From NCBI GenBank assembly GCA_943736015.1, contig OX031058.1, positions 19,555,001 to 19,619,000 of the forward strand: a stretch of 64,000 nucleotides of DNA, written 5' to 3'. This DNA comes from Tridacna crocea (taxonomy: Eukaryota > Mollusca > Bivalvia > Cardiida > Cardiidae). The notes beneath the pieces were generated by a model, which made no database searches, was not told where the DNA came from, and saw only the letters and a program-made list of their open reading frames with translations. Below, in pieces: positions 9,836-57,368 of this stretch. Each line of letters begins with the position of its first letter. Position 1 is the first letter of the stretch. The translations under genes and the position numbers were made by a program.

Positions 9836-10064
9836 TTAACTCATTACCACACAACAAAATTTTAGACTGGTCCAAATTGAAAGCATTTGCAGACGACAAA
9901 ATAAAGGTGACTGAAAAATAGAAATTTGTTCTGGAAAGGGTAGAAAACACTGTGGGAAAAGGAGAAAATGCTGGTTACCAGCATTTTCTCCTTTTCCCAC
10001 AGTGTTTTCAAAAGGCTTCTTTCTCAGGGGCGTCAAAAGTAGGGATTGAGTGGTAATGGGTTAA
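9836..10064 (+). mobile_element. TMF1 reference copy (TTAA-flanked palindromic MITE)
   Basis: A clean 229 bp copy including both TTAAs. Order: TTAA; inverted end C-C/T-ATTACCACAC; left arm with TTTTAGACTGGTCC, AAATTGAAAGCATTTGCAGA and CGACAAAATAAAGGTGACTG; a 67 bp palindrome (9943-10009, two 32 nt arms around TTA at CTGGTTACCAG) with GTGGGAAAAGGAGAAAATGC in each arm; right arm with GGCTTCTTTCTCAGGGGCGT and AGTAGGGATTG; inverted end GTGGTAATGGG; TTAA. It has no coding capacity. The TTAA duplication and CCC-type ends fit a non-autonomous piggyBac element (inference). Transcribed, the palindrome would form a long hairpin. Confidence 0.92.
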
Positions 10065-10320
10065 TGGTATTTAATGGTCTGTTCTCATTCATACCATTAA
10101 AGCTACCATTAGATATACATTTTTACAGATAAGGTAAAATCAGTGGAGAGTTAACCATTGAAATCAGACTATTTAAAGGCCATTTCAATGGTTTTTGCTG
10201 AGAAATGGGATTTTCAATGGCCTTTTAAGGCTCTTTAAATGAATTGTTGACCATTTCATTTTGCTAAGGGAGAGTCTTGAATTTGTCGTTTGAAAAGGGT
10301 TACGGCATAGAGTTGAACAT

Positions 10321-10557
10321 TTAACCCTTTCCCAAACGACAAACTTTTGGACTAGACCAAATTGAAAGTATTTGTAGATGACAATTCAACTCGTGTTGAA
10401 AAGATGATTTCTGTCTATGATAGGGTAGAAAACATTGTGGGAAAAGGAGAAAATGCTGGTTACCAGCATTTTCTCCTTTTCCCACTATGTTTTGTTGTTT
10501 TCAAAAGGCTACTATTCCAGACCCGTAAAAACCAGGGATTTTTGGGGAAAGAGTTAA
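10321..10557 (+). mobile_element. TMF1 copy, CCCAAAC subtype
   Basis: Ends TTAACCCTTTCCCAAACGAC and TTTGGGGAAAGAGTTAA. Right arm AAAACCAGGGA rather than AAAGTAGGGA. Strong palindrome. Confidence 0.88.
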
Positions 10558-10584
10558 AGAAGATACATGTTCTTAAACTCCTTA

Positions 10585-10985
10585 AAAATGTTCTCATTAT
10601 CATTTAAGAATAGTTCTAGGATATTTTAGGAACATTTTTTTTCTTTAACAGTTCCTAAAATGTTCTTGTTATCATTTAAGAATAGTTCTAGGATATTTTA
10701 GGAACATTTTTTTTCTTGAACAGTTCCTAAAATGTTCTTGTTATCATTTAAGAATAGTTCTAGGATATTTTAGGAACCTTTTTTTTTCTTGAACAGTTCC
10801 TAAATGTTCAAAGAACATTTTAAGAATTATTTAAGAACTTGACAAGTTCTTAAGAAATTCTAGAACTGTTCTTAAAAATTGTTCTTGAACAGTTCAAGTA
10901 CAACTGTTCAAGAACAGCCTTCAAGAGCAGATCAAGAACTGTTCCTAAAGTTCTAGAACAATTCATGAACAGTTCTAATCACAAG
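10585..10985. repeat. GTTC/GAAC decamer array with 72 bp tandem repeat
   Basis: Three near-identical 72 bp units starting at 10585, 10657 and 10729 (each with TTCTAGGATATTTTAGGAAC and a T-run), then a scatter of GTTCTTGAAC-type decamers to ~10985. Related to the array at 800-1268; 72 is twice its 36 bp unit. Confidence 0.75.
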
Positions 10986-11177
10986 AACTGCGTTTCGCAG
11001 GGGCATTGCAGGAATCTCGAAATTGGGCTCAGTCAGCCAAGGTAAGATCCGCGTAGTGATCATAACCTTGGCTCGCAAAGATATAGTCATGTATGCTTTT
11101 ATTCAAACAGTGACAACTGATTGACATTTTGAGACTTTCTGTCACAGCCAATCATGCATATTATGCGCTGTCTGATC

Positions 11178-11726
11178 TTAAAGGTGGGTATCTAGAATTT
11201 TCACGTCCCACCAAATTAAAAAATGTATATATCACTGAAATTTATATGAAAAACAATACAAATCATCAATAATTAAGAATCATAAAATTACAAAAAAAAA
11301 TTTTTTTGATGGTATTCCCTTAAAAGGCTATGTAGCCTCTTAAGCTATTTTTAGATTTCCCGCCAAAAATATAAAAAAAAAAGCATTGTGGGAATGTTAA
11401 GTGACTGGCACATGGCTAATGACTCTGAAATTCCATAAAATGACGAACATGTAATTATTTTCCATAATGTCTTTTTCGGACGCTATGTTTGAAGCTTCGT
11501 CTGTATATTTTCGGCGTGTAAATGAGCGAATTGCTATATAAAAATAGACCGTGTTTCCCGTCTGCATCGAACTGGGCTGTAGTGAATCTCTAATTTCTCA
11601 TGTTGTCGGATGGTTTTCGACTGCACAGGCGTTATGAATGAAAATGATAAGGCTTTTGGAGTATAAGGATTATTTTTTTGTATTCTTGTTAAATTTTCAT
11701 CTCAAAATCTGAAAGGCCACCTTTAA
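11178..11726 (+). mobile_element. AAAGGTGG-ended element, ~550 bp
   Basis: Starts TTAAAGGTGGGTATCTAG and ends GAAAGGCCACCTTTAA, giving ~10 bp inverted ends. No coding capacity. Contains GCCTCTTAAGCTATTTTTAG and TGTATATTTTCGGCG. Two further near-complete copies lie at 28699 and 29821. Confidence 0.8.
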
Positions 11727-12122
11727 TCTACATTGGTGCAATGGCAGCTTAAAATATGGAAGGCTCTTTTGAGGATAAATGGTGGTTAGAGTTATTTTCC
11801 TTTCAGAAATTTTGTATGATCATCCACCTTTTTTTGTTTTTTTCCCCAATTCTTATTCTGACAATGTCTGTTGTTTGTCAGGCCTGAACTTTCTTGAAGG
11901 TATGCATTAAGGCGAGCAAAGAAAGGTGCAATAAACATCTGTGGTGGAGAATGTTACTAGATCTAACAGAAATTGTCTGCCTTTTGTCTCATACAGGAGC
12001 AATTTATTTTATTCAGAAAGATTTGGATGAAACCTTACTGCACCAAATAAATATTCTTGGTCAGAATTTTGTAATTATGTTTTTGAAATTCCCTACAAAA
12101 GAAGGTTATTAGGCTTGGCTGT

Positions 12123-12210
12123 TTAACCCATTACCACACAATCCCTTCTTTTGAAGCCCCTGAGAAAGAAGCCTTTTGAAAACACTGTGGGAAAAGGAGA
12201 AAATGCTGGT
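12123..12210 (-). mobile_element. TMF1 half element cut at the palindrome axis
   Basis: Runs perfectly from TTAA to GAAAATGCTGGTAA and stops at the axis; unrelated sequence follows. Confidence 0.8.
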
Positions 12211-12319
12211 AATGTTTAGTGATAGCTCTGGTTGACTGATTGTATCATGGGATTGATGAAAGTCATTGCAGTACATTTAGCATTTATATCTCTATGACTG
12301 TTTGACAGTCTGTCAATGG

Positions 12320-12543
12320 GTTAGCTCTGTACAAGATGACAAAATTTTAGACATGTCCAAATTGAAAGTATTTCTAGAAAGCAAATGTTGTTGAAATTGT
12401 TGGATTGCTCTCTGAAAATGTGGACAGCATCATGAGAAATGAGGCAATGCTTGTAACCAGCATTTTCTCCATTTTCCACAATATTCTCGAAAGCTTTCTT
12501 TCTCAGGGTTGCTAATTCTTGGGCTTTTGATGTAAAGGGTTAA
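12320..12543 (+). mobile_element. TMF1 copy, left part diverged
   Basis: GTCCAAATTGAAAGTATTTC, then a clean right palindrome arm and GTAAAGGGTTAA. Confidence 0.75.
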
Positions 12544-12659
12544 CTTTTGACCAGATGAAGAAATATCAGTAATGCAAATATCAAAAAAACCATTATCTTC
12601 ATAGATGAAAACTGCTGTTAACCAGGAGTTTCTCCCTTCTTCATGATGTTCTCTAGAAA

Positions 12660-12871
12660 ACTTTCCATGCTTATTCTCTACCACACAATTACTTGTGGAA
12701 AAATATGAAATTGTTTGTGACCAACATTTTCTCCTTTTCCCACAGTACTCTCTTCCCTTTCAAAGACAGTTTCCCCATTTAGAGCCACATTTGATTAGCG
12801 TTAGTTGCTTGCAATGTTTTGAATTTGAGCAAGAGCAAGTATTAAATTTTGTCAGTTTGGTAAAGGGTTAA
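12660..12871 (-). mobile_element. TMF1 copy, diverged
   Basis: ACCACACAATTAC start, CCAACATTTTCTCCTTTTCC and a TTTGGTAAAGGGTTAA end. Confidence 0.65.
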
Positions 12872-13057
12872 GGACAAATGAGTTTTTAACTTTACACATG
12901 TGGAAACAATTGGAAATGGAGAGTAAACCTGTGCCTTGGTAAATAGTGTAGGTAAAGCTATTTATCACAAAAACATGCCAAAGCAAAGCAAAGAAAAAAC
13001 ATGTTTATTTTCAGGCAAGTGTAAGAAATAACAAGATTTGCAACCTTGATCATGCTT

Positions 13058-13286
13058 TTACTCTTTACCAAACGAAAAATTTATAGACTGGTCCAAATTG
13101 AAAGCATTTACAGATGACAAAATAATTGTGACTGAAAAATGAAACTGGATGTGGGAAGAGTAGAAATTACATTGTTAGAAAAGGACAAAATGCTGGTTAC
13201 CAGTATTTTGTCCTTTTCCCACAATGCTTTCAAAAGGCCTCCACCTCAGGCTTGTCAGAAGTTGTCAATGTGTAGTAAAGCGATAA
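13058..13286 (+). mobile_element. TMF1 copy with symmetric arm change
   Basis: The left arm reads AAAAGGACAAAATGC and the right arm ATTTTGTCCTTTT: the G-to-C change is mirrored. Confidence 0.82.
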
Positions 13287-13599
13287 AATTATTTGCTACT
13301 CTCAGGTTCCATTGTTGCCCTGTGGTAAAGGGTTTTGATTTTGAACTAGAGGTTCCAAGTTTGATGGCAACTGATGGCAGTGATTCCCTTGCTCTAAGTT
13401 CTGGTGCAATTTTCTTAACCTCTTCTTAACAAGGAAGCTTGAAGACACACTTCCATCGTAAATAGTATTTTGGATATTTGGAGAAGAAAATAATAATGTT
13501 TATCTTCTTGTAAGTGTAAGAAAAAATCATTTTGGTATGGTTAATTGTACACGACATCTACCATTGTATGCTGTAATCTCTGAATTGTCCTTTGTGGCG

Positions 13600-13747
13600 A
13601 TATTGTCAAGCACTGTCATCATTGGAATTGAAAAAATTAAGGTAAAAGAAAAAGCTGCTGGTAACTAGCAGTTTTTCTTTTTCCCTCAATGTTTTTTAAA
13701 GCCTTCCTGAAGGTTGTTTAAAGTCATGATTGTGTTATTAAGGATTA
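13600..13747 (+). mobile_element. TMF1 right half, diverged
   Basis: AAAAAGCTGCTGGTAACTAG CAGTTTTT keeps pairing although both arms left the consensus. Ends GTTATTAAGGATTAA. Confidence 0.6.
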
Positions 13748-13772
13748 ATTTTAATACTATACCAAAACTTCA

Positions 13773-14112
13773 GGGCCCTGTTTCACCAAGGCAGTTACGG
13801 TTTCACCGTGGCAGTTACGAACAAACTTTGTGTAAGTTTAACATAACTGTTGTGTAGTTGCATTGATCTGCTATCATTAACTATAATTGTACAATTTTTG
13901 AAAACTATTGGGAAAAATCAAAGTTTTCCAGGAAATTTTATCTGCATAAATTGAAAAGCTAAAATTTCCATGGAACTTTGATTTATCGCAATAGTTTTCT
14001 GAAATAATCGTGACAGTTATGTCGTATCTGGTAGTGGTTTTATGCCACTATACTCTAGTTAAGTTAAACTTACACAAATTTTGTTGGTAACAGGCTTGGT
14101 GAAATGGGGCCC
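13773..14112. mobile_element. GGGCCC-ended foldback, 340 bp
   Basis: GGGCCCTGTTTCACCAAG at one end returns as CTTGGTGAAATGGGGCCC; inner arms also pair (CAAACTTTGTGTAAGTTTAA / TTAAACTTACACAAATTTTG). Confidence 0.75.
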
Positions 14113-14344
14113 AGGTGTTTAACGACTGAGGAACAAGACTTTCAAGAACATTTTCAAAACATGTTTTCTTCCACTTCAAAGACAGGTGTCATCATTTGTG
14201 ACAGATTTTATACTTATGAAAATAACTTCAATAAAATACAAGTAGTTCTTTGGTAAAGAGACGAGCAAAGACCTAAAGAATATGCAAAATGGGATTATAC
14301 TGAACAGGTGCTTGCTTAGTACAAGTAGATTTCATCTATTTGCC

Positions 14345-14563
14345 TGCACACAATCTCAACTTTTAATGACCCTGAGAAAAAAGACTTTTGAAAATATTAT
14401 GGGAAAAAGAGAAATTGTTGGTAGCCAGCATTTTCTTGTTTTCCCACAATGTTTTCTACTCTTCCCAAAACCAATTTCAATTTTTCAGTCACATTTATTT
14501 TGTTGTCTGCAAATGCCTTCAATTTTGATTGGTCTTAAATTTTGTTGTTTGGTAAAGAGTTAA
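14345..14563 (-). mobile_element. TMF1 copy
   Basis: Right-arm start CACAATCTCAACTTTTAATG; ends TTTGGTAAAGAGTTAA. Confidence 0.82.
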
Positions 14564-14951
14564 TTCAGGTTGTTTGCAAAGGTGGCCACTTAGACAGGTT
14601 TTACTCTGTTTCAGAAACTGATTGTTGAAGGTACTCATAAATCAATAAGGACCTCATGAACAAGTTGGTAATTAAAACACAAACAAAAATAGAATAGAGC
14701 CAAACTGAATATTAGCAAACCACATGGAAAACTGGTAAAAAACTGGTGAAAGAATGAGTATCACAAGGTGTAAATCAAGTAGTTCCATTGGAACTACATG
14801 GTTCAGTAAAAGAAAACATGTTAGTATCATGGTTGAGTGAAAAAGTATATCATTTATTTGACCACAAGAGTCAAACCACAGCCCCAGAGTTAATGAGAGT
14901 TTTGTTGTAGGCTGTTGTTGAACTGCAGATGATCATTTGCCATATTCGAAC

Positions 14952-15072
14952 CCTAACCAAACAATTCTGAGTTTTTATGTTCCTTAGAAAAAGGGTGTTT
15001 GAAAATATTGTAAGAAAAGAAGCAAATGTGAGCAGCCAGCAGTTTCTTGCTTTCCACATAATGTTTTCAACA
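14952..15072 (-). mobile_element. TMF1 right-arm and palindrome fragment
   Basis: ACCAAACAATTCTGAG to ACATAATGTTTTC; abuts the foldback at 15076. Confidence 0.6.
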
Positions 15073-15075
15073 TCT

Positions 15076-15273
15076 GGGCCCGTATTCACCAACCATTCTT
15101 GAGAATATTCGTAGTCTTATTCTCCCAGATTTTCCAAATTTGTAAGTAACACAACCTCTGATTGGCTAAACCATTCGGTTTAGCCAATCAGAAGTTGTGT
15201 TACTTACAAATGTAGATAATTCTGGAGAACAAGACGAAGAACGTTCTTAAGAATGGTTGGTGAATATGGGCCC
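15076..15273. mobile_element. GGGCCC-ended foldback, 198 bp
   Basis: Nearly a full hairpin: GGGCCCGTATTCACCAACCA pairs with TGGTTGGTGAATATGGGCCC, and the tip TGATTGGCTAAACC pairs with GGTTTAGCCAATCA. Confidence 0.82.
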
Positions 15274-18034: not shown

Positions 18035-18061
18035 AGCCTTTTTATCCCGGAGCTTTAATTT

Positions 18062-18277
18062 TTAATTCTTTACCACACAATCCCGACTTTTAACACCTTG
18101 AAAGAAAAGCCTTTTGGAAACATTGAGGGAAAAGAAAAAAATGCATTTTCTTCTTTTCCCACAATGTTTTCTACCCTGGTAGAAATAAATTTTAGTCTTT
18201 GAGTTACCTTTACTTTGTTTTATGCAAGTGCTTGCAATTTGGACCAGTCGAAAATTTTGTGTTTGGTAAAGAGTTAA
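18062..18277 (-). mobile_element. TMF1 copy, shortened palindrome
   Basis: The axis region is deleted: GAAAAAAATGCATTTTCTTC joins the arms directly. Confidence 0.82.
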
Positions 18278-18332
18278 CCTGGATATAAAATTTTAGACCT
18301 GTCCATATCTTAAAGCAACTGTACACAATAAA

Positions 18333-19036: not shown

Positions 19037-19355
19037 AAACCATGACATGGTAGAGAAATGACATAGAAAGATGGCTGCTATAGAGAACAGATGAAGATGC
19101 CAAATGAACTGACTTTGAATGCCAATTATCATAAAAAGAAACAGATTTCCTTTCTCTCAAGAATAGAATTTTTATTTGGTTAAATTAATTCGTAAAAGTA
19201 GGTAATATGTTAGCAAAAGCCTTTATATATTCATAGGTTTTCTGTCCTAGGTTTAATTCTATATTCATCCATAATGATATGAGTGACGTCCCTTGGTAAT
19301 GGCAGCCGACTTTGAATTCGGAAGAAGGGATGCAAGATTTCCTAGATTCATGTCT

Positions 19356-19583
19356 TTAACCATTTCCCAAACAAGCCCTGGTTTGTACGTGTCTGCATTA
19401 AAAGTCTTTTGAAAACAGTGTGGGAAAAGGAGAAATTGCACTTAATGAGCAATTTCTCCTTTTCCCACACTGTTTTCAACCCTTTTTGAGAACTTTCTGC
19501 CATTTTCTCCAAATCTAAAATAGTCGTCTGCAAACTCTTTCGGTTTGGAAGAGTCCAAAACTAGTCATTTGGGAAAGGGTTAA
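19356..19583 (-). mobile_element. TMF1 copy, AATTGC axis subtype
   Basis: Palindrome 19411-19477 has ACAGTGTGGG on one side and CCCACACTGT on the other, plus GAAATTGC / GCAATTTC: every change is mirrored. Confidence 0.9.
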
Positions 19584-19663
19584 AGTCTATCAAGGTACAG
19601 TAATTCCAAAACAACAAAATTAGTAAAAGGTGGCTAAATTTATGGAGCTTTTCTTTCATAATG

Positions 19664-21396: not shown

Positions 21397-21777
21397 TGGA
21401 TTTGAAAAAATCATTACCTTTGATGTTAGTTCAATAGTTAATTCTGGAATACAAGATCCAAGAGTCTGTGCAGACTGATTATCAAAGACATTTGTCTTTG
21501 AACTGAGTTGTAAAAATATAGTAACATGCTAGTTAACAACATTTTCAGTTTTTTCCAGAATGTTTTAAAAAGGTTTCTTAGGGTGATCCAAACTTGGGTT
21601 CTATCTACGGATTGCTGAAGAGTTAGACGGATTGCTGAAGAGTTAGACGATAGAAAATTTATTAGACGATAGAAAATTTACTGAAAATAAATCAAGATTT
21701 TTCTAAAAATAGACAAGAAAAATAATAAACAAATTATTCCCGAAAAGTTTTGCTTGGGAGTTATTTCTAATCTAAGA

Positions 21778-22007
21778 CTAAACTCTTTACTACACAATCC
21801 TGACTTTTAATGATTGTGAGAAAGAAGCCAACTGAAAACATTGTGGGAAAAGAAGAAAATACTGGTAAACAGCATTTTCTAATTTCCCCACAATGTTTTC
21901 TTCCCTTCCCAAAACAAATTTCAAATTTTCAGTCACTTACATTTTGTTGTCTGCAAATGCTATCAATTTGGACCAGTCTGAAATTTTGTTGTTTTCTAAA
22001 GAGTTAA
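21778..22007 (-). mobile_element. TMF1 copy, first of a three-element array
   Basis: Complete except a degraded first TTAA (CTAA); next element follows at the shared TTAA. Confidence 0.86.
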
Positions 22008-22150
22008 CTCTGGTAACCAGCATTTTCTCCTTTTCTTTTAATGTTTTCTACCGTGTTGAAAACAGATTTCAATTTTTGAGTTACTTTTGTCGTCTGCAAG
22101 TGCTTTCAATTTCAACTAGTCCAAAATTTTGTCTTTTGGTAAAGAGTTAA
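22008..22150 (-). mobile_element. TMF1 half element from the palindrome axis
   Basis: Begins CTGGTAACCAGCATTTTC, i.e. at the axis, and runs to a normal GGTAAAGAGTTAA end. Confidence 0.82.
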
Positions 22151-22375
22151 CCCATTACCAAATGACAATACTATAGACTTGTCCAAATTGAAAGCATTTG
22201 CAGACGACAAAATAGAAGTGACTGAAAATTTGAAATTTGTTTTGAGAAGGGTAGAAAACATTGTGGGAAAAGGAGAAAATGCTGGTTACCAGCATTTTCT
22301 CCTTTTCCCACAATGTTTTCTAAAGGCTTCTTTCTCAGGGGCGTCAAAAGTAGGGATTGTGTGGTAATGGGTTAA
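22147..22375 (+). mobile_element. TMF1 copy, third of the array
   Basis: Complete. Perfect 67 bp palindrome at 22254-22320. Opposite orientation to its neighbours but shares their TTAA. Confidence 0.92.
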
Positions 22376-22659
22376 ATCATTCTCCGCTAATGATGCTTAT
22401 TTTCTCTGGGGTGGGGTAAAGCTAGTTATCTTAAATAAACTGCAGGTACAAGGTACAACTTCCTTCACAGCCAGTCTAGGGCTTATCAGTCTTGTTGAGC
22501 CCTCATTCTGATAGGAAAAGATAATATATGTTTGTTTTTCTGTGTTTATGTTTGAACTTAGGTGAAGAAGTGCAGCAGATGCAAAAAAAGACCCTACTCT
22601 TCCTGTCCTATATCTCTTTTCATATAGATGGAGAAAAGTTGAATGGGAAAGTTTGGATT

Positions 22660-23555: not shown

Positions 23556-23790
23556 CTAACCTTTTATCACACAATCCCTACTTTGAATTTGATGATCCTG
23601 GGAAAGAAGCCTTTAGAAAACATTGTGGGAAAAGGAGAAAATAGTGGTAAGCAGCATTTTCTCCTTTTCCCAGAATGTTTTCTATCCGTCGCAAAACAAA
23701 TTTAAAATTTTTCATTCACTTTTATTTTGTTGTCTGCAAATGCTTTCAATTTGGATAAACCTAAAATTTTGTTGTTTGGTAATGAGTTAA
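23556..23790 (-). mobile_element. TMF1 copy
   Basis: Small insertion in the right arm (CTTTGAATTTGATGATCC); shares its final TTAA with the next copy. Confidence 0.86.
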
Positions 23791-24020
23791 CCATTTGCCA
23801 AACAATCCCAGGTTTTTCACAACTAAGAGATAGAACTGGCTGCCTTTAAAAAAAAAATTCTGGGAAAAGGAGAAAATGCAGGTAACAAGGATATTCTACT
23901 TTTCCCATAATGTTTTCTACTTTTCTAAAGCCAGGTTTCAGTTTTTGAGTGGCATTTATTTTGTTGTCTGCAAATGCCTTCAAATTGGACAATCCTAAAA
24001 TTTTGTCGTTTGGTCATGAA
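23787..24020 (-). mobile_element. TMF1 copy, CCAAAC subtype
   Basis: Begins at the shared TTAA; end GTCGTTTGGTCATGAA lost its terminal repeat. Confidence 0.8.
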
Positions 24021-26071: not shown

Positions 26072-26590
26072 CAGAACAGAACAGAACAAAACATAATACA
26101 ATCAAGTCGTAAACAACAATTCCCGAAAGTTTTTAAACAAAGAGCAATAGATTGTTTTATTCAAGATTGGCTGAGTACCGTACAAAATAGCGCAGCTTTA
26201 AAAGACTATTCATTAATTAAACACACATTTGGTTACGAACCATATTTAGATATTTTATCAAGAGATATGAGAATTTATTTTACAAGACTAAGATTTTCAT
26301 CACTCAACCTGCAAATTGAAACTGGGAGATACAGCAACTCCCCTGTACCCCGCTCTGGAAGATTTTGTCCTTGTTGTAACGGTACAGATATTGAAGACTC
26401 ATATCACTTTTTATTTTTATGCTCATGTTATAACGAAGTTAGACAGAGATTTTTTCCCTTTTGCCTGTATATTTTCGAAATCGCCCATCTGAAATTTACT
26501 GAACTGCTAAAACCCCAAGACAAAAACATTATTATAAAAACCGTGGTCTACGTCAAATATGCGATCGAAAAACAACTCGAAATATTATAA
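26072..26590 (+). mobile_element. 5'-truncated LINE: C-terminal end of a reverse transcriptase ORF
   Basis: The frame is open for 172 codons after an in-frame TAG and ends at TAA. It carries the zinc-knuckle-like tail typical of invertebrate non-LTR retrotransposon polyproteins: RFCPCCNGTDIEDSYHFLF, then LCSCYNEVRQRF, that is, C-x2-C followed by H and C in the pattern of post-RT domains. Upstream are the usual helical stretches (FIQDWLSTVQNS, MRIYFTRLRF). The endonuclease and RT core are missing, so this copy is dead. An AT-rich tail with no clear poly(A) follows to about 26710. The clade (CR1/Jockey/RTE-like) cannot be fixed from this piece. Confidence 0.75.
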
Positions 26591-30743: not shown

Positions 30744-30972
30744 TTAACTCATTACCAAACAACAAGATTTTAGGTTTGTCCAAATAGAAAGTATTTGCAG
30801 ATGACAAAATAAAAGTGACGGAAAATTATAATTTGTTTTGTGAAGGGTCGAAAACATTATGGGAATAGGAGAAAATGCTGGTTACCAGCATTTTATCCTT
30901 TTCCTACAATGTTTTCTGAAAGGCTCCTTTCCCAGGGTCGTCAAAAGTAGGGATTGGCTGGTAATGGGTTAA
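30744..30972 (+). mobile_element. TMF1 copy just after exon C
   Basis: Starts 38 bp from the exon C boundary. Complete; arms ATTATGGGAATAGG versus CCTACAATGTTTTC show minor asymmetry. Confidence 0.9.
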
Positions 30973-31165
30973 GAATCATAAATTTTAAGGATCCCAAGGA
31001 AGAACAGTTCTGAAACCATTGTGGAAAAAGGAGAAATAGTAGTGAGCAGCTATTTCTCCTTTTCCCTGACTGTTTTCTTCCCAGTCAAATGCAAATCTTT
31101 CAATTTTTAACCTATTTGTTATGAGCAAGTAGCTTAAAATTTGTTGTTTGGTATAAAGAGATACC
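30973..31165 (-). mobile_element. TMF1-related copy with altered axis
   Basis: GGAAAAAGGAGAAATAG / CTATTTCTCCTTTTTCC: the ATAG change is mirrored in both arms. End TTTGGTATAAAGAG. Confidence 0.68.
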
Positions 31166-32691: not shown

Positions 32692-34267
32692 TTAGCTCAC
32701 CTGAGCACAAAGTGCTCATGGTGAGCTTTTGTGATCGCACAATGTCCGTCGTCCATCGTGCATCGTCCGTCGTCCACAATTTCTTTAAACATCTTCTCCT
32801 CCTAAACCACAGGGCCAATCTTGATGAAACTTGGCAGGAATGATCCTTGGGTGAAGCTCTACCAAAGTTGTTCAAGAGATTGAATTCCAGCCAGAACTCT
32901 GGTTGCCATGGCAACCAAAAGGAAAATCTTTGAAAATCTTCTTCTCTGAAACTAGAAGGCGTAGAGCTTTGATATTTGGTATGTAGCTTCTCCTAGTGGA
33001 CCTCTACCAAGATTGTTCATATGATGCCCCTGGGGTCAAAACTGGCCTTGTCCAGGGGGTTACAAGTTCGAAACAGAGGAACAAAGAAGGAAAGCTTTAA
33101 AAATCTTCTTCTCTGAAAGTACAAGGTGCAGAGCTTTGATATTTTGTATGTAGCATCTCCTAGTAGACCTCTACCAAGACTGTTCATATGATGCCCCTGG
33201 GGTTAACCCTTTCCCAAACGACAAAATTTTAGACTTGTCCAAATCAAAAGCATTTGCAGACTACAAAATAAAAGTGACTGAAAAAATGAAATTTGTTTTG
33301 TGAAGAGTACAAAACATTGTGGGAAAAGGAGAAAACGCTGGTTACCAGCATTTTCTCCTTTTCCCACAGTGTTTTCTAAAGGCTTCTTTCTCAGGGGCGT
33401 CAAAAGTAGGGATTGTGTGGTAATGGGTTAAAACATAGGAACAAAGAAGGAAAACTTTAAAATTCTTCTTCTCTGAAACTAGTAGGAGCAGAGCTTTGAT
33501 ATTTAGTATGTAGCAACTCAAAGTGGACCTCTACCAAGATTGTTCATATGATGCCCCTGGGGTCAAAACTGGCCCTGCCCCAGGGGTCACAAGTTTGAAA
33601 CATAGGAACAAAGAAGGAAGCTTTGAAACTAGAAGGTGCAGAGTTTTGATATTTGGTATGTAGCATCTCTTAGTGGATCTCTACCAAGATTGTTCATATG
33701 ATGCCCCTGGGGTCAAAACTGGCCCTGTCTCGGGGGTCACAAGTTTGAAACATAGCAGGAAAGAAGGAAAACTTTAAAAATCTTCTTCTCTGAAACTAGA
33801 AGGTGCAGAGCTTTGATATTTGTTATGTAGCATCTCCTAGTGGACCTCTACCAAGACTGTTCATATGATGCCCCTGGAATCAAAACTGGCCCAGCTGCGG
33901 GGGTCACAAGTTTGAAACATAGGAACAATGAAGGAAAACTTTAAAATTCTTCTTCTCTGAAACTAGAAGATGCAGAGTTTTGATATTTTGTATGTAGCAT
34001 CTCTTAGTGGATCTCTACCAAGAATGTTCATATGATGCCCCTGGGGTCAAAACTGGCCAGGCTGCAGGGTCACAAGTTTGAAACAGAGGAACAAAGAAGG
34101 AAAACTTTAAAAATCTTCTCTAAAAGTAGAAGATGCATTTTGCACAGTGTGACCCTGTCAGAATTATTTGACCTTGAACTTTGATATTTGGTATTTATCT
34201 TCATTGTAGACCTTTACTGCTTAGTACTCAGGTGAGTGATATAGGACCATCATGGTTCTCTTGTTTT
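32692..34267 (+). mobile_element. Pearl/Helitron-like element with ~166 bp tandem core
   Basis: Starts TTAGCTCACCTGAGCACAAA, with AGTGCTCATGGTGAGCT pairing back. The core repeats about seven times a ~166 bp unit containing GATGCCCCTGGGGTCAAAAC and TCACAAGTTTGAAAC (starts near 33591, 33741, 33908, 34073). It ends with the hairpin GGACCATCATGGTTC and CTCTTGTTT. Non-autonomous Helitron-type (HINE/pearl) is the best fit, by architecture only. A TMF1 copy sits inside at 33203-33431. Confidence 0.7.
33203..33431 (+). mobile_element. TMF1 copy inside a pearl-like element
   Basis: Complete, both TTAAs present, breaking the tandem core of the 32692-34267 element; so this insertion is younger than its host. 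Confidence 0.93.
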
Positions 34268-35323: not shown

Positions 35324-36970
35324 TAGCTCCGCTGGCCTTTGGCCAGTGGGCTTATGTCATGGCCCGTTGTCCGTCGTGCGTGCGTGCGTGCGTCCGTCCG
35401 TTAACTTTTTCTTTAAACATCTTCTTCTCTGAAACTACCCATCCAATTTTGATGAAACTTCACAGAAATGATCCTGCCATGGTCCTCTTCAGAATTTCTT
35501 GAAAGAATTTAATTCCTTCAAAAACTCTGGTTGCCATGGCAACAAAACTGAAAAATTTTGAAAATCTTCTTGTCTGAAACCGTAAGGCCTAGAGCTACCA
35601 AATTTGGCATGTAGCTTTATCTAGTGGATCTCTACCAAGTTTCTTCAAATTATAGCCCTGGGGTCAAAATTGGTCCTGCCCCGGGGGTCACAAGTTTTAC
35701 ATGGGCTTATTTAGTGAGAACTTTAAAAGTCCTCTTCTACCTAGGCATAGGGCCTAGGGCTACCAAATTTGGGATATTGTTTTATTTAGTGGACCTCTAC
35801 CAAGAGTGTCTAAATTATAGCCCTGGGGTCAAAATTGGCCGCGCCCCAGGGGTAACAAGTTTTACATGGGCTTATATAGGGAGAACTTCAAAATTCTTCT
35901 TCCACCTAGTCATAGGGCCTAGGGCTACCAAATTTGGCGTGTAGCTTTATCTAGTGGACCTCTACCAAGGGTTTCCAACTTATAGCCCAGGGATCAAATT
36001 TGGCCCCGCCCCGGGGGGTAACAAATTTTACATGGGCTTATATAGGGAAAACTTTCAAAATCTTGTCGCACCTAGCTATAAGGACTAGGGCTATCAAATT
36101 TTGCATGTAGCTTTATCTAGGGGGTCTCTACCAAGGGTGCCCAGAAGTATAGCCCTGGGGTCAAATTTAGCCCCCGTCACAGGGGATCACAAGTTTTGCA
36201 TTGGCTTATATAGGGAAACTTTAATAATCTACTCGTACATAGCCATAAGGCCTAGGGCTACCAAATTTTGCATGTAGCTTTATCTAATGGGCTTCTACCA
36301 AAAGGGCCAAAATTTTAACTTTGGGGGTGAAGTTTGACCCCATCCCAGGGGTCACAAGTTTTACATTGGCTTTATAAACCTGTTTCATGGGTCACATATT
36401 TTACAGGGCCTTTTATTGAGCAAACTTGTTGTACAGGGCTTTTTATTGGGCAAGATTAAAAAATCTTCGTGTTTATAACCACACATTCTAGTTTCAAATT
36501 GTAGATATGGGGTCAAAATTGGCTCCATCCAGGGATCACAAGTTTAACATGGGCCTCAAGATATAGTCACTTTAATTTATACATTAATCAAGGGAAATAA
36601 CTTTTTATGAAAGATAAAGTTTGGTACTATTTACCTCCCTTGATTATCAAACTGCATTGATACATGATTGATGCTAGACATTAAGTTTTTTGATAGAAAA
36701 TATTCTGTTTTCAAGTGTTATTCATTATTTTGATGCTAATAGTTACGCTCACATGAGGTGAATAATAAATTCAGAGTAAGATTTCTATCATTCAGCTTAT
36801 TTTTCCAAGGATTTTACCTTTCATGCTAATGAATTAACCTGCTTGTACTGCATGACAGCGTTCATTGTTTTTGAAGGCCCTCTTTTTCATGTTCATGAAA
36901 ACTTCAATTTGTGTGGTAAAGGGTTAAAAAGCCAGTGGAGCGATACAGGGCCATCATGGCCCTCTTGTTT
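35324..36970 (+). mobile_element. Pearl/Helitron-like element, second type
   Basis: Starts TAGCTCCGCTGGCCTTTGGC, then a GTGCGTGC/CGTCCGTC run. The core repeats a ~165 bp unit with ACAAGTTTTACATGGGCTTA (near 35691, 35855, 36021, 36189, 36354). It ends with the hairpin GGGCCATCATGGCCC and CTCTTGTTT. Core sequence differs from the 32692 element but period and end match. It splits a TMF1 subfamily D copy. Confidence 0.72.
36855..36927 (+). mobile_element. TMF1 right-end remnant within the pearl-like element
   Basis: CTTCAATTTGTGTGGTAAAGGGTTAA-type end, 13 bp before the host element's terminal hairpin region. Confidence 0.5.
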
Positions 36971-41774: not shown

Positions 41775-43010
41775 GACTTTTGTAGATTCTTTTACAAGGA
41801 AAAATTTACAAAAGCTCATCCAGAGCATTTTGTCTTCAGGTGAGCTAAAATGATATACAGTTTAACCCATTACCAAACAAGAAAATTTTAGACTGGTCCA
41901 TATTGAAAGCATTTGCAGACGACAAAATAAAGGTGACTATAAAATTGAAATGTGTTCTGGAAAGGGTAGAAAACACTGTGGGAAAAGGAGAAAATGCTGG
42001 TTACCAGCATTTTCTCCTTTTCCCACAGTGTTTTCAAAAGGCTTCTTCCTCAGGGGCGTCAAAAGTAGGGATTGTGTGGTAATGGGTTAAGAGGCACTGG
42101 AAAACAAGTGTAAAAATTGGGTCACATCAGGACAAGAAGTATATCACAGGGAACTTTTGTGGAGTCTAGAGGCCACATTATGAGTCGATACTCATGAAAC
42201 TTTGTCAAAATGTTTGCCTTGATTACAGATGACCTCAGATCAGCTGAGATCAAATAGTAGGTCACTTGAACAAATCTTGGACCCTTTATGCATTCAAGAG
42301 GGTGTGTTTCTGGTCCAAATACATATGAAAGTTAGACTTTTTTTTTTTGCTGATATTCACTTCAGATCAAGGTCATTTTAGATAAAAGAAAGTCATTTGA
42401 TCAAATATTAGAAAAACTTAGTGTGCACTAAGAGGCCTCATTCTCAGTCTGATACCCATGAAACATGGTCAGAATGTTGCGTATGTCAACAAAGGTCAGA
42501 CGTATCATCTGAAAGATATAAAAATGCATCGTTTGGTCATTTATGGTCATAAGGTAAGGCATTGGGATAACTGTAAAAAAAAAAAATTATGCACACTAGA
42601 GGCTTAATTTTCAGTATGATACTTGTGAAAATTGGCCAGAATATCTATCCTGATGGTGTCCCAGACAATTAAAACCTGGGTTATGTGGGAGCAAAAAGTA
42701 GGTCATATAGAAAAAATATTTATGTGCTCTACAGACCTCATTTTCAGTCTGATACTCATGAAAATTGGTCAGAATCTGGCTTGTTGAGTTGATATCAAAG
42801 ACAGGTTTAAAACTGGGACATGTGGGATCAAAAAGTAGGTTAGTTGGACAAATCTTAGAAAATGCCTATATGCACTTCAGAGACCAGATTTTCAGATCAA
42901 TACTTATGAAATGTGGTCAAAATATTTGTCTTGTTGATCTTTCGGACAAGATTAAAATCAGGTTATTAAGGTCTAAAAGAAAGTTATTAGCACTCGTGCG
43001 TTTTTACATC
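41775..43010. mobile_element. Third pearl-like tandem element, with TMF1 insertion
   Basis: An edge with TTCAGGTGAGCTAAAATG (~41836) is followed, after the TMF1 copy at 41862-42090, by about five units of ~135-260 bp containing GATACTCATGAAA-x-TTGGTCAGAAT (near 42169, 42431, 42598, 42732, 42881). The far end is not defined. Confidence 0.55.
41862..42090 (+). mobile_element. TMF1 copy
   Basis: Complete with mirrored ACACTGTGGG / CCCACAGTGT arms; lies between two parts of a pearl-like element. Confidence 0.92.
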
Positions 43011-48094: not shown

Positions 48095-48192
48095 TAAGTC
48101 TGAGAAAGAAGTTTGTTGAAAACACTGAGAAAAGGAAAAATTGCTTTTAACCATCAATTTCTTCTTTTCTCACAATGTTTCATACCTTCAAT
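48095..48192 (-). mobile_element. TMF1 palindrome fragment, AATTGC type
   Basis: GGAAAAATTGCTTTTAACCA TCAATTTCTTC with AAGAAGTTTGTTGAAAACAC. Confidence 0.5.
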
Positions 48193-48441
48193 TAATCCTT
48201 TACCCAAATTCAATAATCACTGGTTTTTACAACCCTTAGATAGAAGCCTTGTGAAAATATGGCAGGAAAATATGGTGGGAAAAGGAGAAAATGCTGGTAA
48301 CCAGCATTTTCTCCTTTTCCCTCCATGTTTTCTACCCTGCTGGAAATATTTTTAGAAATTCTCTAATTTCATTTATTTTGTTGTCAGCAATAGCTTTTAA
48401 TTTGGACCAGTCTAAAATTTTGTCGTTTAGTAAAGTGTTAT
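48193..48441 (-). mobile_element. TMF1 copy
   Basis: CCTTTACCCAAATTCAATAA start; palindrome contains a duplicated arm start (ATATGGCAGGAAAATATGGT); ends 155 bp before exon D. Confidence 0.8.
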
Positions 48442-49415: not shown

Positions 49416-49644
49416 TGGTTCAGACAAGGGATTGTTTAGTTAAGGGTTGAATTCCACAAGTGAGGGAAAACAGATCATAATAAACTGTCTGGTGGTTAAT
49501 TTAAAGTGTTGTCTGTGCTTAATCAAGAAAACAGTGTCAGAAAATCACCAGAATTTTATCTCATGGATTTATCTCACTATCTACAAAGGCAAATTTGTAG
49601 AAGACAAATTTGAAAATATCATTGTTTCTCCTTTTGCCAGAATG

Positions 49645-49873
49645 TTAACTCTTTACCACACAATCCGGACTTTTAACAACCCTGAAAAAGAAGCCTTTTG
49701 AAAACATTGTGGGAAAAGGAGAAAATGCTGGTAACCAGCATTTTCTCCTTTTCCCACAATGTTTTCTACCCTTCCTAAAACAAATTTCATATTTTCAGTC
49801 ACTTTTATTTTGTCGTCTGCAAATGCTTTTGATTTGGACAAACCTAAAATTTTATCATTTGGTAACGAGTTAA
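49645..49873 (-). mobile_element. TMF1 copy
   Basis: Complete; perfect palindrome with ACATTGTGGG / CCCACAATGT. Confidence 0.92.
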
Positions 49874-52370: not shown

Positions 52371-52472
52371 CATTTACATTTTTGTCTGTTGTTGCTGTCA
52401 TTTCCGACAAGACTGCATTTTTGTAATTTGTCTAAGAATCAGAAAATAATGAAGGATTAAATGACTTATTTC

Positions 52473-52662
52473 TTAACCAAACTATCCCTTCTTATAAAAG
52501 CCGTTTGAAACAAAGATTTTGAAAATATTGCCAGAACAGAAAAGAATATGGGAAAAAGAAAAAAATGCTTGTAACCAACAGTCTCTTTGTTTACCAACAA
52601 TGTTTTCAAGAGCCTTCTTTCTCAGGGTTGTTAAAACCGGGATTATTTACTGAACGGGTTAA
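52473..52662. mobile_element. TMF1 arm-swapped hybrid (two right arms)
   Basis: TTAACCAAACTATCCC on one side, AAAACCGGGATTATTTACTG and GGGTTAA on the other; neither side has the left arm. Confidence 0.65.
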
Positions 52663-52849
52663 AAGGATTTTTTTTTTTTGTTTGAAAAGCCAGGAACCAG
52701 CTTGCAACTGAAGGTGATTAGAGTAACACTAAAAAGGGTTTTTGAAGTTGAGAAATATCACAAGTGGCAATTTCCGGAAAACTTTCACCAGAATCACCTA
52801 GACCTAGGAATTACATTACTTCTCCAAACGTACTCATTCAAAATGATAT

Positions 52850-53059
52850 AACTCTTCTTAAACTTGACTAAACTGAAAGCAATTGCAGGACATAAATTAA
52901 TTGCAAATCAAATGACGATTTCTGCTTAAGATATAGAAGAAAACATTGCAGGAAAAGAAGAAAATGATGGTCACCAACATTTTCTCAATTTCCTACATTC
53001 TTTTAAAAAGGCTCTGTCTCAGGGTGGTTAAAACTCAGGATTGTATGGTAAGGGCTTAA
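52850..53059 (+). mobile_element. TMF1 copy, diverged
   Basis: AACTGAAAGCAATTGCAGG, GATGGTCACCAACATTTTC and GTATGGTAAGGGCTTAA. Confidence 0.68.
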
Positions 53060-53194
53060 CTCTTTGGTAGACTGCAAATTTTAGTCTTTACCAATTTAAA
53101 GCTCGCCCTCTCAGTTTTCTAAGCCTCACTAGATAAACTTTATCCATCTCGGCACCAACCATATATTCTCTATTTTCATAGCCTCAGAAACTTC

Positions 53195-53400
53195 AGCCAG
53201 CCAGAATGGTAAACTATTATTCTGCGAAAAGGGGCATTTGTTTTTGCGTAAAGTGTCATCTCTAATCAGCAATTCAAGACAGCACTTTAAGCCAAGCAGA
53301 AAATAACATAAAACTGTTGTTTCAGATTAGCCTGTGCGGAGTGCACAGGCTGATCCAGAACAACACTTTCTCAAATGTCCGAATATCCCTTTTGTGTGTT
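53195..53400. repeat. Hairpin-bearing interspersed repeat
   Basis: Perfect hairpin GCCTGTGC-GGAGT-GCACAGGC at 53330-53350, with TGCGTAAAGTGTCATC and CAACACTTTCTC on the flanks; type common in bivalve DNA (recall, not search). Confidence 0.5.
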
Positions 53401-53924
53401 ACAGTCCATATTACAAAGCCTGTCTAGACTAAAGCTGCCATGAAATTGCACTTATTTGGATCTTATTTCAAGCCTGAAAAAGTCCATGTTGCTTATTTGG
53501 CACATTAAGGCCTAATATCAGAGAGCAAAGTCAAGGAAAACTGTACCTTTGGGATAAGATGGCTTTCTTTTCATCATTTTCTCTTCTGTCTTGCTGTGTT
53601 GAATTACTATTGTTCCCAGTGGTACAATATAAGATACCACTTAAATTTTCATTATGATAACCTGGCAGACTAATAGAATTCCTTACTGCAGACTTCTAGC
53701 GATTAGACCTCTTGAAAATTTTGAATAAGAACGGCTTATTGAGGGATGTAGCTCAAATTGTTGTCTTCAGAAAAAGTCTTGGGCTCCACTATTCATAAAT
53801 AAACATTGACCAACACATGTAATAAGTTCCTTAGGAAACTATAATTTTTGATCAACTCTTTTTTAATGATTTATATGGACAGAATAAAAACGAAACTGGT
53901 GCTGTAGAGGTTGAAGGAGTTGTT
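53400..53924. other. Intron-like sequence, nothing recognised
   Basis: No exon with suitable phase and no family seen elsewhere in the window. Confidence 0.3.
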
Positions 53925-54148
53925 CCAACCCGTTACCATCAATTTCTCCCTTTAAGAAGATTAAGAATGAGATTTTGGAAAAGATCGTGGGAAAAGGTGA
54001 AAAAGCTTGCAACCATCATTTTCTCTTTTCTCGCCAGGTTTTCTTTCCTTTCAAAGATAAATTTGAGCTTTTGAGCCACAATTGAATTGTCCTTTCCAAA
54101 TGTTTTCAATTTGGACAAGTTTAAAATTTTGTCATCTGGTAAAAGGTT
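53925..54148 (-). mobile_element. TMF1 copy
   Basis: CAACCCGTTACCATCAATTT to TCTGGTAAAAGG; palindrome worn. Confidence 0.72.
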
Positions 54149-54544
54149 TCTAAACTTGCCAGAAGAGCTTTGGAAAAATAGTTTATGAGAAAATGTGCTA
54201 ATGTCATACAAGTGAAAGTTTATTGCCAGATACACTTGATTTAATGACTTGAGCTTTTATTTTGAATGTCTTATTACATTCAGTGAACATATTAAAAGAC
54301 AAGTGCTATTGGATATTACACCATAAAAACTAAAGCTTTTCGTAACCTGTTCTCTGCTTTTCTGATACAATTAAGTCTATTTACATCTATAAAATTCTTC
54401 TAGAAGAAAAACACTTTTATAATAGTAAATAGAAGGTGTTTTTATAGTTAAGATTTTTTCCCCTTGTAGAAGGCTGTTTCTAACATGAAGTGTTTGTTTT
54501 TTAAATTCCCCAGTCTATCTTACAGGTCACTTATTGATGTCTTT

Positions 54545-54735
54545 TTGTCAGATCCCATGAACAGTTCACTGTATATGTTTTCAGTTCATGAAGTGTTCAT
54601 GAACTATTCAAGAATTAGATTTTGGGGGGGGGGGGGGGGGGGGGGGGGGGTCATGAAATCCATATTCATGAACTATTACTAACAGTTCATGAAATAGACC
54701 CTGATATCAGTTCATGAACTGATTTTTCTTAAACA
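54545..54735. repeat. GTTCATGAAC decamer array with 27 G run
   Basis: Repeated TTCATGAAC palindromes interrupted at 54624-54650 by an unbroken run of 27 G. The run length may be an assembly estimate. Confidence 0.65.
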
Positions 54736-55354
54736 TTTCATGAAGTTGTTGTCTTAAAGAAGTTCAAGGAAGAATTCAATTACTTAAATATTCTAATGGA
54801 AAACAGCTATTTCCACTTTAATATTATCCTAAAAAAGTTGCTATGATTGAAAATGAGTATTATTGTACTACTTTGACAGAGCCACTTTTTTTTTTCCATC
54901 TAAGAATTATCATTTATAAGTCTAGGCCACTCTATTATCATTACAAAAGGAGATAATAATTACCTCCCTTTTCTGAAAAATAACAAAATATCGACAAATA
55001 ATTTCAAGATGGACATCAAATGAATTTCTGGTCAGTAAGAAATGTGCAAAAATATTATATCAGTATAAATCCTTATTTATCAACTAATAAGAAATTTCAT
55101 TCCATGTTGCATTAGAAGAGTTAGGATGGTAATACCTTAAACCCAATTTCAGTCATGCAATTTGCAGATATTTATTGTAAGGGGGTTAACACAATTTATA
55201 ACAGTATTCAGTTACATCATGGCTACAAGTGCAAATACCCACTAATTTCTATCTAAGCTAATTGCCACTGAAACCTAACTGAGTAAAGGTAACTGATGGA
55301 TTGGGGTTTATGATCAAAGGTTTTCTACCATTATAGGAAAATGTCTGAGACACC

Positions 55355-55612
55355 ACAACCAGTTCATGAATTTCGATTCAGGAAAGGTTCACTTGCAGTT
55401 CAAGACTTACTTCGTTGAATTGTTCATGGAACTGATTAAGAGCTGTTTATTCATAAACAGTTCATCAGCTGTTCATGAACAGTTCATAGAACTAAAAGAA
55501 ATGTTCATGAACAAAAATGGTTCATGAAATGGCCATTTGCTGTTCATGGGATTGTTTATGAACTGTAGTTCAGGAATCATTCATGAATTCCAGAACTACT
55601 TTTTGGAGGGTA
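55355..55612 (-). repeat. GTTCATGAAC decamer element, inverted relative to 47880
   Basis: The 3' half (55485-55612) is the reverse complement of the element at 47880-48002, including CATGAAATGGCCATTTGCTG. The 5' half adds further decamers. Confidence 0.6.
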
Positions 55613-55615
55613 TGT

Positions 55616-55700
55616 TAATTAACGGTTTATCAAACAACAGTATTTTAAACTAGTCTAGACTGAAAGCATTTTTGGGCAACAGTATATGTACATTGTTGGT
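55616..55700 (+). mobile_element. TMF1 left-end fragment
   Basis: TTAACGGTTTATCAAACAAC and GACTGAAAGCATTTTTGGGC. Confidence 0.55.
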
Positions 55701-56416
55701 CTAGAGGTCTGACTGATTAAATCACAGATTTGTATGTAAAAATTTCAGATCTAGATGTTGTTGCTCATATGCTTTAACTTTGAGCATGGACACTGCAACA
55801 TTACGTAAGAAGTTTTGGCAGACCATATTGTGAATTTCTACTTATACTGTCTGCTGAAGTAACAGTAACTGAAGTTTTGAACAGGACACTCTTGAGCCTT
55901 TTAATTTTCAGGCGAAAAAATTTTAGGAAATTGTCTTCCTTTGCAATAAATCAAGGCATATGGCATCTATACCAATCTATTGAGGTGTAGTGATTATGAC
56001 AAAAAAGACTTCATGTGAGTGTTAGAATAGTGCTTACACTTAAAAGACACTTACAGCTGCATTTTTAGGGTAATCCATCATTTTCTTAGGTTTTTTTTGT
56101 AATACATACTAGGGTATTTTGTTCACAAGGTTCAATTCTATCAAAAGGAACCTTTGATTATGGGTGTTTCATTATGCAAGCAGTAATTATTCATGGCTTT
56201 GCTTTGAAGTCAAACACCAATCCACTTTTACAGTTTATTAAGCAGATTCATGAGTTCTGTTGGTGCACTCCTCCATCTTACATTACATAGTTATGCAAAA
56301 TTACATACACTTTTAAGTTCTATTGACTTTGAAGGTAGATTTTGAGTCAGTTTTGAAGATCAGGGTTCAGATTCATGTTGGAACTTCAACATGTAGTGTA
56401 TTTGTCAGATGACCCT

Positions 56417-56629
56417 TTAACTCTACAAAATTTTGGACTAATCCAAATTTAAAGCATTTGTAGACAACAACATAAATGTGACTCAAAAAGTGAATTTTGA
56501 TTTCAGAAGGGTAGAAAACACTGAGAAAAGGAGAAAATGCTTGTTTTCAGCATTTCTTTTTCTACAATGTTTTCAAAAGCTTTCCTTCTCAAGGTCATCA
56601 GAAGTCGGGATTGTTTGGTGAAGAGTTAA
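56417..56629 (+). mobile_element. TMF1 copy
   Basis: TTAACTCTACAAAATTTTGG start lacks part of the terminal repeat; end GTTTGGTGAAGAGTTAA. Confidence 0.8.
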
Positions 56630-56850
56630 CTCTTTACTGTTCTATGCAATAAATTTTAGATTTGTCCAACTTGTGAAAGCATCTGCAGACAACAAATGAA
56701 ACATTACACAAAACATGAAGCTGGGTATTTCATGGAGCTATAAACATTATCAGAATAGGAGAAAATGCTGATTCCCAACACTTACTCCTTTTCCATCTAT
56801 GTTTTGAAAAGCTGTGACACTTAAAGGCTTGTTAAAACTCGTGTGGAAAA
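56626..56850 (+). mobile_element. TMF1 copy, diverged
   Basis: Shares TTAA with the preceding copy; CATCTGCAGACAACAAATG and AATGCTGATTCCCAACACTT. Confidence 0.65.
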
Positions 56851-56920
56851 TGCTAATGCAGACTTACTGTGAGAAGACTTTTGAAAACGAAGTTTGAAAA
56901 CTCTGTATTCACTCATATAT

Positions 56921-57145
56921 TTAACTCATTACCACACAGTCCCAAATTTTAATGACCTGTAGAAAGAGTCCTTTAGACAACATTGTGGTAAATGGAAAAA
57001 AAATGCATTTTCTCCTTTACGTGCAATGTTTTCTACCTTTTCAAAGAAAATTTCATCATCTGAGTCCCGTGTAATTTGTCATCTCCAAATGCTGTTAAAT
57101 TTGTCAAGTGTAAAATTTTGTTGTGTGGGTGTGGTAAAGAGTTAA
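56921..57145 (-). mobile_element. TMF1 copy
   Basis: TTAACTCATTACCACACAGT; palindrome tip deleted (AAAAAAAATGCATTTTCTCC); end doubled as GTGGGTGTGGTAAAGAGTTAA-type. Confidence 0.8.
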
Positions 57146-57368
57146 CCCTTTCCCAAACAAGCCCTTGTTTTTATGTGTCTGCAGCACAAGTCTTTTGAAA
57201 ACACTGTGGGAAAAGGAGAAATTGCTCGTAACGAGCAATTTCTCCTTTTCCCACAGTGTTTTCTACTCATTTGGAGAACTTTATGCCATTTCAATTAAAT
57301 TTGAAATAGTCGTCTGCAAACTCTCTGAGTTTGGAAGAGTCTAAAATTTGTTGTTTGGGAAAGGGTTA
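57142..57368 (-). mobile_element. TMF1 copy, AATTGC axis subtype
   Basis: Perfect palindrome 57197-57263 with axis TTGCTCGTAACGAGCAA; shares its first TTAA with the previous copy. Confidence 0.92.

Follow-up and report, generated by a model that had tools for sequence, protein, structure and literature searches.

Matched palindrome arms in a TTAA-ended repeat of Tridacna crocea: inheritance and probable arm-to-arm copying

A palindrome-centred repeat and its copies

A 64-kb stretch of the Tridacna crocea genome, hereafter the window (contig OX031058.1; C3:19555001-19619000 in a source assembly of 1.049 Gb and 31 contigs), carries many copies of one short repeat, and the two arms of the palindrome at the centre of that repeat are the subject of this report. 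An iterated profile search recovered 106 non-overlapping copies between positions 1605 and 62953 of the window, in either orientation, amounting to 18,728 bases. The unit is about 229 bp long, ends in TTAA, and contains a central 67-bp palindrome composed of 33-bp arms around a 1-bp axis; each of the two ends, 5' and 3', has its TTAA in 34 of the 53 window copies scoring at least 100. The repeat is a non-autonomous TTAA-ended DNA transposon, that is, a miniature inverted-repeat transposable element (MITE), built on this palindromic core. For one copy with a perfect palindrome (9823-10064), the DNA fold had a z-score of -10.81 relative to shuffled sequences. The repeat had no Rfam match at the gathering threshold and no match in collections of viral contigs, genome contigs, or plasmids, and no Pfam domain above cut-off was present in five open reading frames of the window, the only frames covered by the transposase search.

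The family extends well beyond the window. Sampling of 200 kb from 20 places (stretches L001-L020, one of them adjoining the window) yielded 165 copies, with 17 of the 20 stretches containing at least one, and extrapolation from the 26 intact inner palindromes among them gives approximately 136,000 in the genome (95% interval 89,000-200,000). Within the window, copies are frequently packed end to end (e.g., 21774-22384, 23556-24018, and 56410-57714), with 27 of 105 neighbouring pairs no more than 20 bp apart compared with 4.9 at random, as though the TTAA of an older copy served as the insertion site of a new one.

A sequence-only reading of the window had noticed that many copies differ from one another by mirrored changes, in which both arms are altered at paired positions, and this was borne out, both copy by copy and as an excess over a within-copy shuffle null in the window and in 314 kb of sequence. 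Copies with the consensus palindrome of subfamily A are found at 22146-22384 (minus strand; palindrome 22254-22320, no mismatches) and 49635-49873 (plus strand; palindrome 49700-49766), and the corresponding pair ACATTGTGGG/CCCACAATGT occurs at six places, 22258 and 49704 among them. The pair ACACTGTGGG/CCCACAGTGT, which carries the mirrored state 26C, is present at 9947, 41973, and 57201; these belong to a subfamily A copy at 9823-10064 (minus strand; exact palindrome 9943-10009), a copy at 41854-42090 (minus strand; exact palindrome 41969-42035), and a copy of subfamily B at 57128-57381 (plus strand; exact palindrome 57197-57263) that has mirrored 3C and 8T in addition, and in which the axis-type pair TTGCTCG/CGAGCAA lies at 57222. 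Another subfamily B copy, at 19355-19589 (plus strand; palindrome 19411-19477), has a private mirrored 26G, seen as the pair ACAGTGTGGG/CCCACACTGT that is present once, at 19415. One A is missing from both arms of the copy at 62755-62953 (plus strand), where GGAGAAATGC/GCATTTCTCC occurs at 62813 and exact 20-bp arms surround 62827 with a mirrored 24A; an older copy at 30948-31158 (plus strand) has GAAATAG/CTATTTC at 31033, and a copy at 48192-48440 (plus strand) a private mirrored 25T>G. Near 13058 the mirrored pair was likewise real but the string first given for it, CATTTTGTCC, does not occur in the window; the copy at 13049-13290 (minus strand; palindrome about 13165-13231) has a mirrored 12G>C, in the form GGACAAAAT/ATTTTGTCC at 13183 and 13205. 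The same reading located its copies in two ways: 9943, 19411, 22254, and 57197 are palindrome starts, and 13058, 30973, 41862, 49645, and 62755 lie near element starts, preceding the palindrome by about 40-110 bp.

Mirrored changes, chance, and subfamily ancestry

Seventy-two window copies had at least 26 of the 33 arm pairs readable, and together held 407 single-arm changes, 53 pairs in which the arms had changed differently, and 48 mirrored pairs. When right-arm states were shuffled among same-base positions of one copy, a null that preserves both age and base, 26.3±4.3 mirrored pair-states were obtained, with 39 the most seen in any of 1000 shuffles; exchanging states between similarly scoring copies gave 30.3±4.8. 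Removal of four recurring states left 30, against 22.3±3.9 (P 0.034) and 22.8±4.0 (P 0.050). A larger sample was assembled from the window and 25 further stretches (250 kb: 19 spaced, one adjoining the window, four beside dense places, and one more spaced), giving 314 kb and 341 copies, of which 242 had at least 26 readable pairs, 210 of these at least 80 outer columns, and 121 of those a score of at least 150 (termed young). The 242 copies contained 194 mirrored entries compared with 76.7±7.0 expected. In the 121 young copies, 18 mirrored states remained once the four were removed, compared with 7.1±2.3, a number matched by none of 300 shuffles. Even among the 42 copies with at most one mismatch, and with seven subfamily states left out, eight mirrored states were found where 0.11 were expected.

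Much of this excess is inherited. For six mirrored states the nearest relative of a carrier is itself a carrier in 77 of 94 cases (8T, 19/23; 26C, 18/22; 3C, 16/20; 13T, 10/12; 20C, 8/11; 4A, 6/6), and these include the ACACTGTGGG state 26C and the 3C and 8T of the TTGCTCG type; for these, as the sequence-only reading had allowed, mirrored differences trace to a few source subfamilies. A third subfamily, C, with mirrored 3C, 8T, 13T, and 20C, emerges in the larger sample, and the 16 copies paired at all 33 positions hold six distinct arm sequences. On internal branches of trees, mirrored changes numbered 3 compared with 0.0 expected for the 121 young copies and 7 compared with 1.5 for the 210 copies; in the window tree, which was built from outer columns only (55 copies), there were 5 compared with 0.5, alongside 29 single-arm changes. 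Clustering by raw outer distance (P 0.11-0.13 for mirrored sets) was judged uninformative because terminal lengths dominate it, and was replaced by shared minority outer states and by nearest relatives. By shared minority states, the mirrored sets of the window cluster for subfamily B (P 0.0014) and for three A-26C copies (P 0.023), with all four young 26C copies at P 0.11, whereas the 30 single-arm states common to at least two young copies include none that clusters at P 0.01 and one that does so at 0.05.

Such a pattern could reflect selection for a matched palindrome in mobile copies, as a DNA hairpin or as a two-fold site for a dimeric protein, with dead copies left to decay, an explanation compatible with arm copying and one to which we give even chances. 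When outer divergence was regressed on palindrome divergence, the 53 window copies gave a slope of 0.996 and an intercept of 0.122, outer divergence there equalling palindrome divergence plus 12%; for 154 A-type copies the corresponding values were 0.81 and 0.149. Both indicate that the arms were kept before insertion rather than after it. The subfamily B copy at 57128 differs from A at 6 of 67 palindrome positions but at 47 of 127 outside it (ends excluded), and the ratio of internal to terminal change is 0.137 in the palindrome versus 0.369 in held-out outer columns. Taken with the clustering of mirrored rather than single-arm states, these observations favour selection, and piggyBac-type transposases are described as binding palindromic sites by paired domains (PMC11707139). 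However, no function or partner protein was found for the palindrome, forms with one mismatch have also been inherited and spread, and selection alone gives no scattered, recurrent doubles in copies with old flanks. The window data read alone say that arms were matched in source elements and decayed independently after insertion; the conclusion drawn from them, that mirrored states arise at the source level only, was overturned in part by the larger sample and by the 12C copies considered below.

If the hairpin were selected as RNA, compensatory changes might pass through G-U pairs, and one-arm states inherited at positions 21 and 22 are indeed G to A and can give such pairs on one strand. This seems very unlikely as the explanation of the matched arms, since four of the inherited mirrored changes (3G>C, 8A>T, 13A>T, and 20G>C) are transversions with no G-U path, inserted copies decay, and Rfam gave no match. 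Covariation in repeat-derived hairpins is, by itself, no proof of RNA function.

Recurrent mirrored changes in unrelated copies

A second class of mirrored states behaves quite differently from the first. For 11 other states, each with at least three usable carriers, the nearest relative was a carrier in none of 41 cases. The six-state class is inheritance, and the scattered class is chance plus something recurrent. Terminal branches of the larger sample, where subfamily ancestry alone would leave only single-arm changes, carry 13 mirrored changes compared with 5.0 expected (121 copies) and 38 compared with 25.1 (210 copies).

The mirrored 12G>C first seen near 13058, a rare transversion, was counted across the genome. 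In an otherwise intact inner 31 bp, mirrored 12C is found at 52 loci and single-arm 12C at 1554 (723 + 831). Chance would give 3.0-6.8 mirrored loci, or 4.3-9.7 when corrected for age differences by the 1.43-fold amount by which non-mirrored opposite-arm doubles in the sample (8 copies) exceed independence. The first 20 of the 52 loci were fetched, 18 of which had enough flank to be evaluated, and these form no subfamily: a mirrored-12C copy was the nearest relative of none of the 18, whereas the set sizes predict 1.38 for unrelated copies. In a size-matched test against random non-carriers, the carriers' own set was the closer of the two for a fraction of 0.49 (0.28-0.78), compared with 0.83, 0.91, and 0.89 for the inherited states 8T, 13T, and 26C, respectively. 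The flanks of 12C carriers are also old, with a divergence of 0.226 compared with 0.132 in copies with a consensus inner palindrome (P 0.0001; P 0.011 by mismatches) and 0.171 in copies with one single-arm change (P 0.012), and resemble those of eight copies with two independent changes (0.214). Older flanks together with the absence of grouping indicate that the mirrored 12C event takes time and is not one inheritance.

Several matched changes can occur in a single copy. At locus L038 all 33 pairs match and 12C, 20A, and 27C are mirrored, in flanks so diverged that the nearest relative lies at 0.273. A 24-base stretch of its arm has six occurrences in the genome, two within L038 itself and one in each of four other places; because those four hold the stretch only once each, no intact sibling carries it on both sides. 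Copies L031, L008_364, and L008_1670 look like L038, as though several changes had been copied in one event; the sibling search covered L038 only. The private triple disfavours gene conversion between copies, in which tracts confined to the palindrome would place one mirrored state in unrelated flanks. That mechanism could account for mirrored 12C in such flanks, and there are about 10^5 possible donors, but donors with mirrored 12C are rare (52) and no intact donor was found in the genome for the L038 triple, the one copy checked; we regard it as distinctly unlikely.

Mirrored changes also depend on age. Across 212 copies the mirrored excess climbs with flank divergence (coefficient +2.09, confidence interval 1.03 to 3.19), and copies with scattered states have flanks more diverged than their mismatches predict (P 0.007 in 193 copies; P 0.13 at three or fewer mismatches). 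This dependence on flank age, and the inheritance of six states, leave very little probability for assembly or consensus errors that mirror one arm onto the other, even though palindromes are hard to sequence. When one to two whole-arm events per site-substitution time were simulated, 9-11% of copies of age 0.12 kept two or fewer mismatches, with about 1.7-2.5 mirrored changes each; in the data, the most diverged class comprises 45 copies, of which 4 have few mismatches, and 6 mirrored changes were counted in these. Simulation and data therefore agree, as a rough match and not a fit, if whole-arm copying strikes each copy about once or twice in the time that a site takes to be substituted once.

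Together, these results make it probable, in our judgement, that the arms agree through the inheritance of matched arms plus occasional arm-to-arm copying in individual copies. Source elements carried matched arms, and their bursts multiplied palindromes that were already perfect; in the arms, mirrored changes are what sets subfamilies A, A-26C, B, and C apart, and single-arm changes are mostly not inherited. Within single copies, most likely after insertion for the majority of scattered events, one arm would occasionally template the other, such that one-arm mutations come to stand in both, sometimes several together. Most likely, the palindrome would form a hairpin or cruciform within which the polymerase switches template. 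Of the two causes proposed in the sequence-only reading, arm-to-arm correction thus appears to survive as a slow and minor process and selection for a hairpin or matched arms as an account of the inherited class, neither alone covering all of the data.

A number of observations weigh against this interpretation. Terminal branches of the window tree showed no excess in their own right, with 9 mirrored changes compared with 7.65 expected and 258 single-arm changes; column-bootstrap trees gave 10.45 compared with 8.13, and 5.0 compared with 2.67 in 38 better copies, and the trees are weak, with 3 of 52 nodes at 0.9 or above. G>A, which is more common than any other single-arm change, makes up nine of the 11 scattered states, and chance therefore accounts for part of that class. 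Stepwise change also occurs, since two subfamilies have inherited single-arm states: C at position 21, in 5 of 12 listed copies with a further one matched, and A-26C at position 22, in 3 of 14 listed copies with again a further one matched. The weakest points are that the genome-wide test depends on one state, 12C, with an extrapolated baseline; judged by mismatches, moreover, the greater age of 12C carriers relative to single-change copies is not significant (P 0.15), and the search around L038 would miss a sibling with a further change in the 24-base stretch. The mirrored excess per copy does not rise steadily with mismatch class (0.19, 0.13, 0.20, 0.48, and 0.03), and its coefficient on mismatches, expected to be negative, is -0.028 with an interval that includes zero (-0.060 to 0.003; 212 copies). 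At the axis, A>T recurs unclustered (0/16 nearest relatives), yet the axis also gains G and C and is too variable to prove inversion, so that a flip of the spacer, which one kind of template switch predicts, is not established. Subfamily inheritance plus chance might instead be the whole cause, every mirrored state then deriving either from a source element or from two independent hits to an old copy. In its favour are the window-only terminal branches, the fact that 99 of the 194 mirrored entries belong to the six inherited states, and the 29 mirrored entries, compared with 27.6, in copies with at least 9.5 mismatches. Against it stand the eight mirrored states in nearly matched palindromes, the 52 unclustered 12C loci where 4-10 would be expected, and the private triple of L038, and on this balance we consider it an improbable account.

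Other features, significance, and known systems

Several further features of the copies concern the hairpin tip and the axis. Those at 18060-18283 (plus strand; mirrored 14A) and 56918-57128 are without the tip and have ATGCAT at the new axis, in the former through an 11-bp symmetrical deletion. Only a few bases from the axis, copies 12212, 19663, 43667, 45961, and 57626 break off or jump, all retaining the same half; an enrichment of breakpoints there (9 of 83, compared with 3.5 expected, P 0.0075) was not used, being post hoc and accompanied by a slightly higher peak (10) at the palindrome end. In subfamily C the axis base is mixed: of 14 copies, including some in L001, L005, L015, L021, and L025, 8 have G, 4 have C, and 2 have A, although at G positions of low-mismatch copies no single-arm change is rarer than G to C. 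The mixture may reflect one sub-lineage or an inversion. Axis A/T flips were set aside as proof of inversion because poorly anchored copies can be misoriented and because source-level outer columns show change at about the same frequency as the axis. Elsewhere in the window, tandem arrays occupy 33466-34119 and 35583-36376, with units of 167 bp and 165 bp and 82-90% matches. A 172-amino-acid open frame at 26072-26590 has no Pfam match, and presumably resembles the C-terminal end of a mollusc long interspersed nuclear element.

Matched stem changes might arise via selected intermediates or by one-step copying, and work on this question has mostly dealt with genes, in which selection masks mutation. 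The present family constitutes a natural gauge of the arm-copying rate, with about 10^5 copies that have an intact inner palindrome (extrapolated), one palindrome, datable flanks, and countable states, and counts of mirrored versus non-mirrored doubles would yield a nearly selection-free rate for a large nuclear genome. More speculatively, and as a proposal that we hold tentatively, more than 10^5 near-perfect palindromes of this one transposon may be undergoing continuous, mostly neutral germ-line rewriting of their arms, with one or two whole-arm events or so in the time that it takes to substitute a site; the same process would have supplied the mirrored changes of the source lineages, and the nuclear genome would thus hold a built-in template-switching clock. 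No description of arm covariation in a eukaryotic MITE was found in the literature searched, as judged by titles and the openings of abstracts. The present case is new in its scale and in that dead copies are probably free of selection.

Among known elements, the palindromic PALTTAA elements of Caenorhabditis elegans are TTAA-ended MITEs of the piggyBac kind (Repbase). The present repeat shares with PALTTAA-like piggyBac MITEs its TTAA ends, inverted ends, and lack of any coding sequence found, but differs in that its core palindrome lies far from the ends and that no transposase was found in the five window frames. The palindromes of the human Y chromosome likewise have arms kept alike by copying, in the form of arm-to-arm gene conversion, although there the arms are very long and recombination is involved, whereas here they are 33 bp. 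REPINs of Pseudomonas are likewise miniature mobile palindromes, in which a change on one side of a hairpin is compensated on the other; they are bacterial, linked to RAYT transposases, and without TTAA ends, unlike the TTAA-ended repeat described here (PMC3116915). In nematomorph mitochondria, paired substitutions preserve perfect inverted repeats and template switching was proposed; those palindromes lie in mitochondrial coding DNA at few loci, in contrast to a nuclear repeat family (PMC6649704). Template switching between inverted-repeat arms has been described in phages, bacteria, and yeast, its marks being arm homogenisation and spacer inversion (PMC8604942), and the authors of a study of RNA stems term their own evidence for stem maintenance circumstantial (PMC8794818). 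Template switching in quasi-palindromes of yeast genes and RNA stems is a close parallel: one arm is copied onto the other recurrently, as is probable here, and several matched changes are carried over together, as may also be the case here. Those systems concern genes under selection, whereas the copies examined here are presumably mostly dead transposons, and very many (PMC8604942; PMC8794818).

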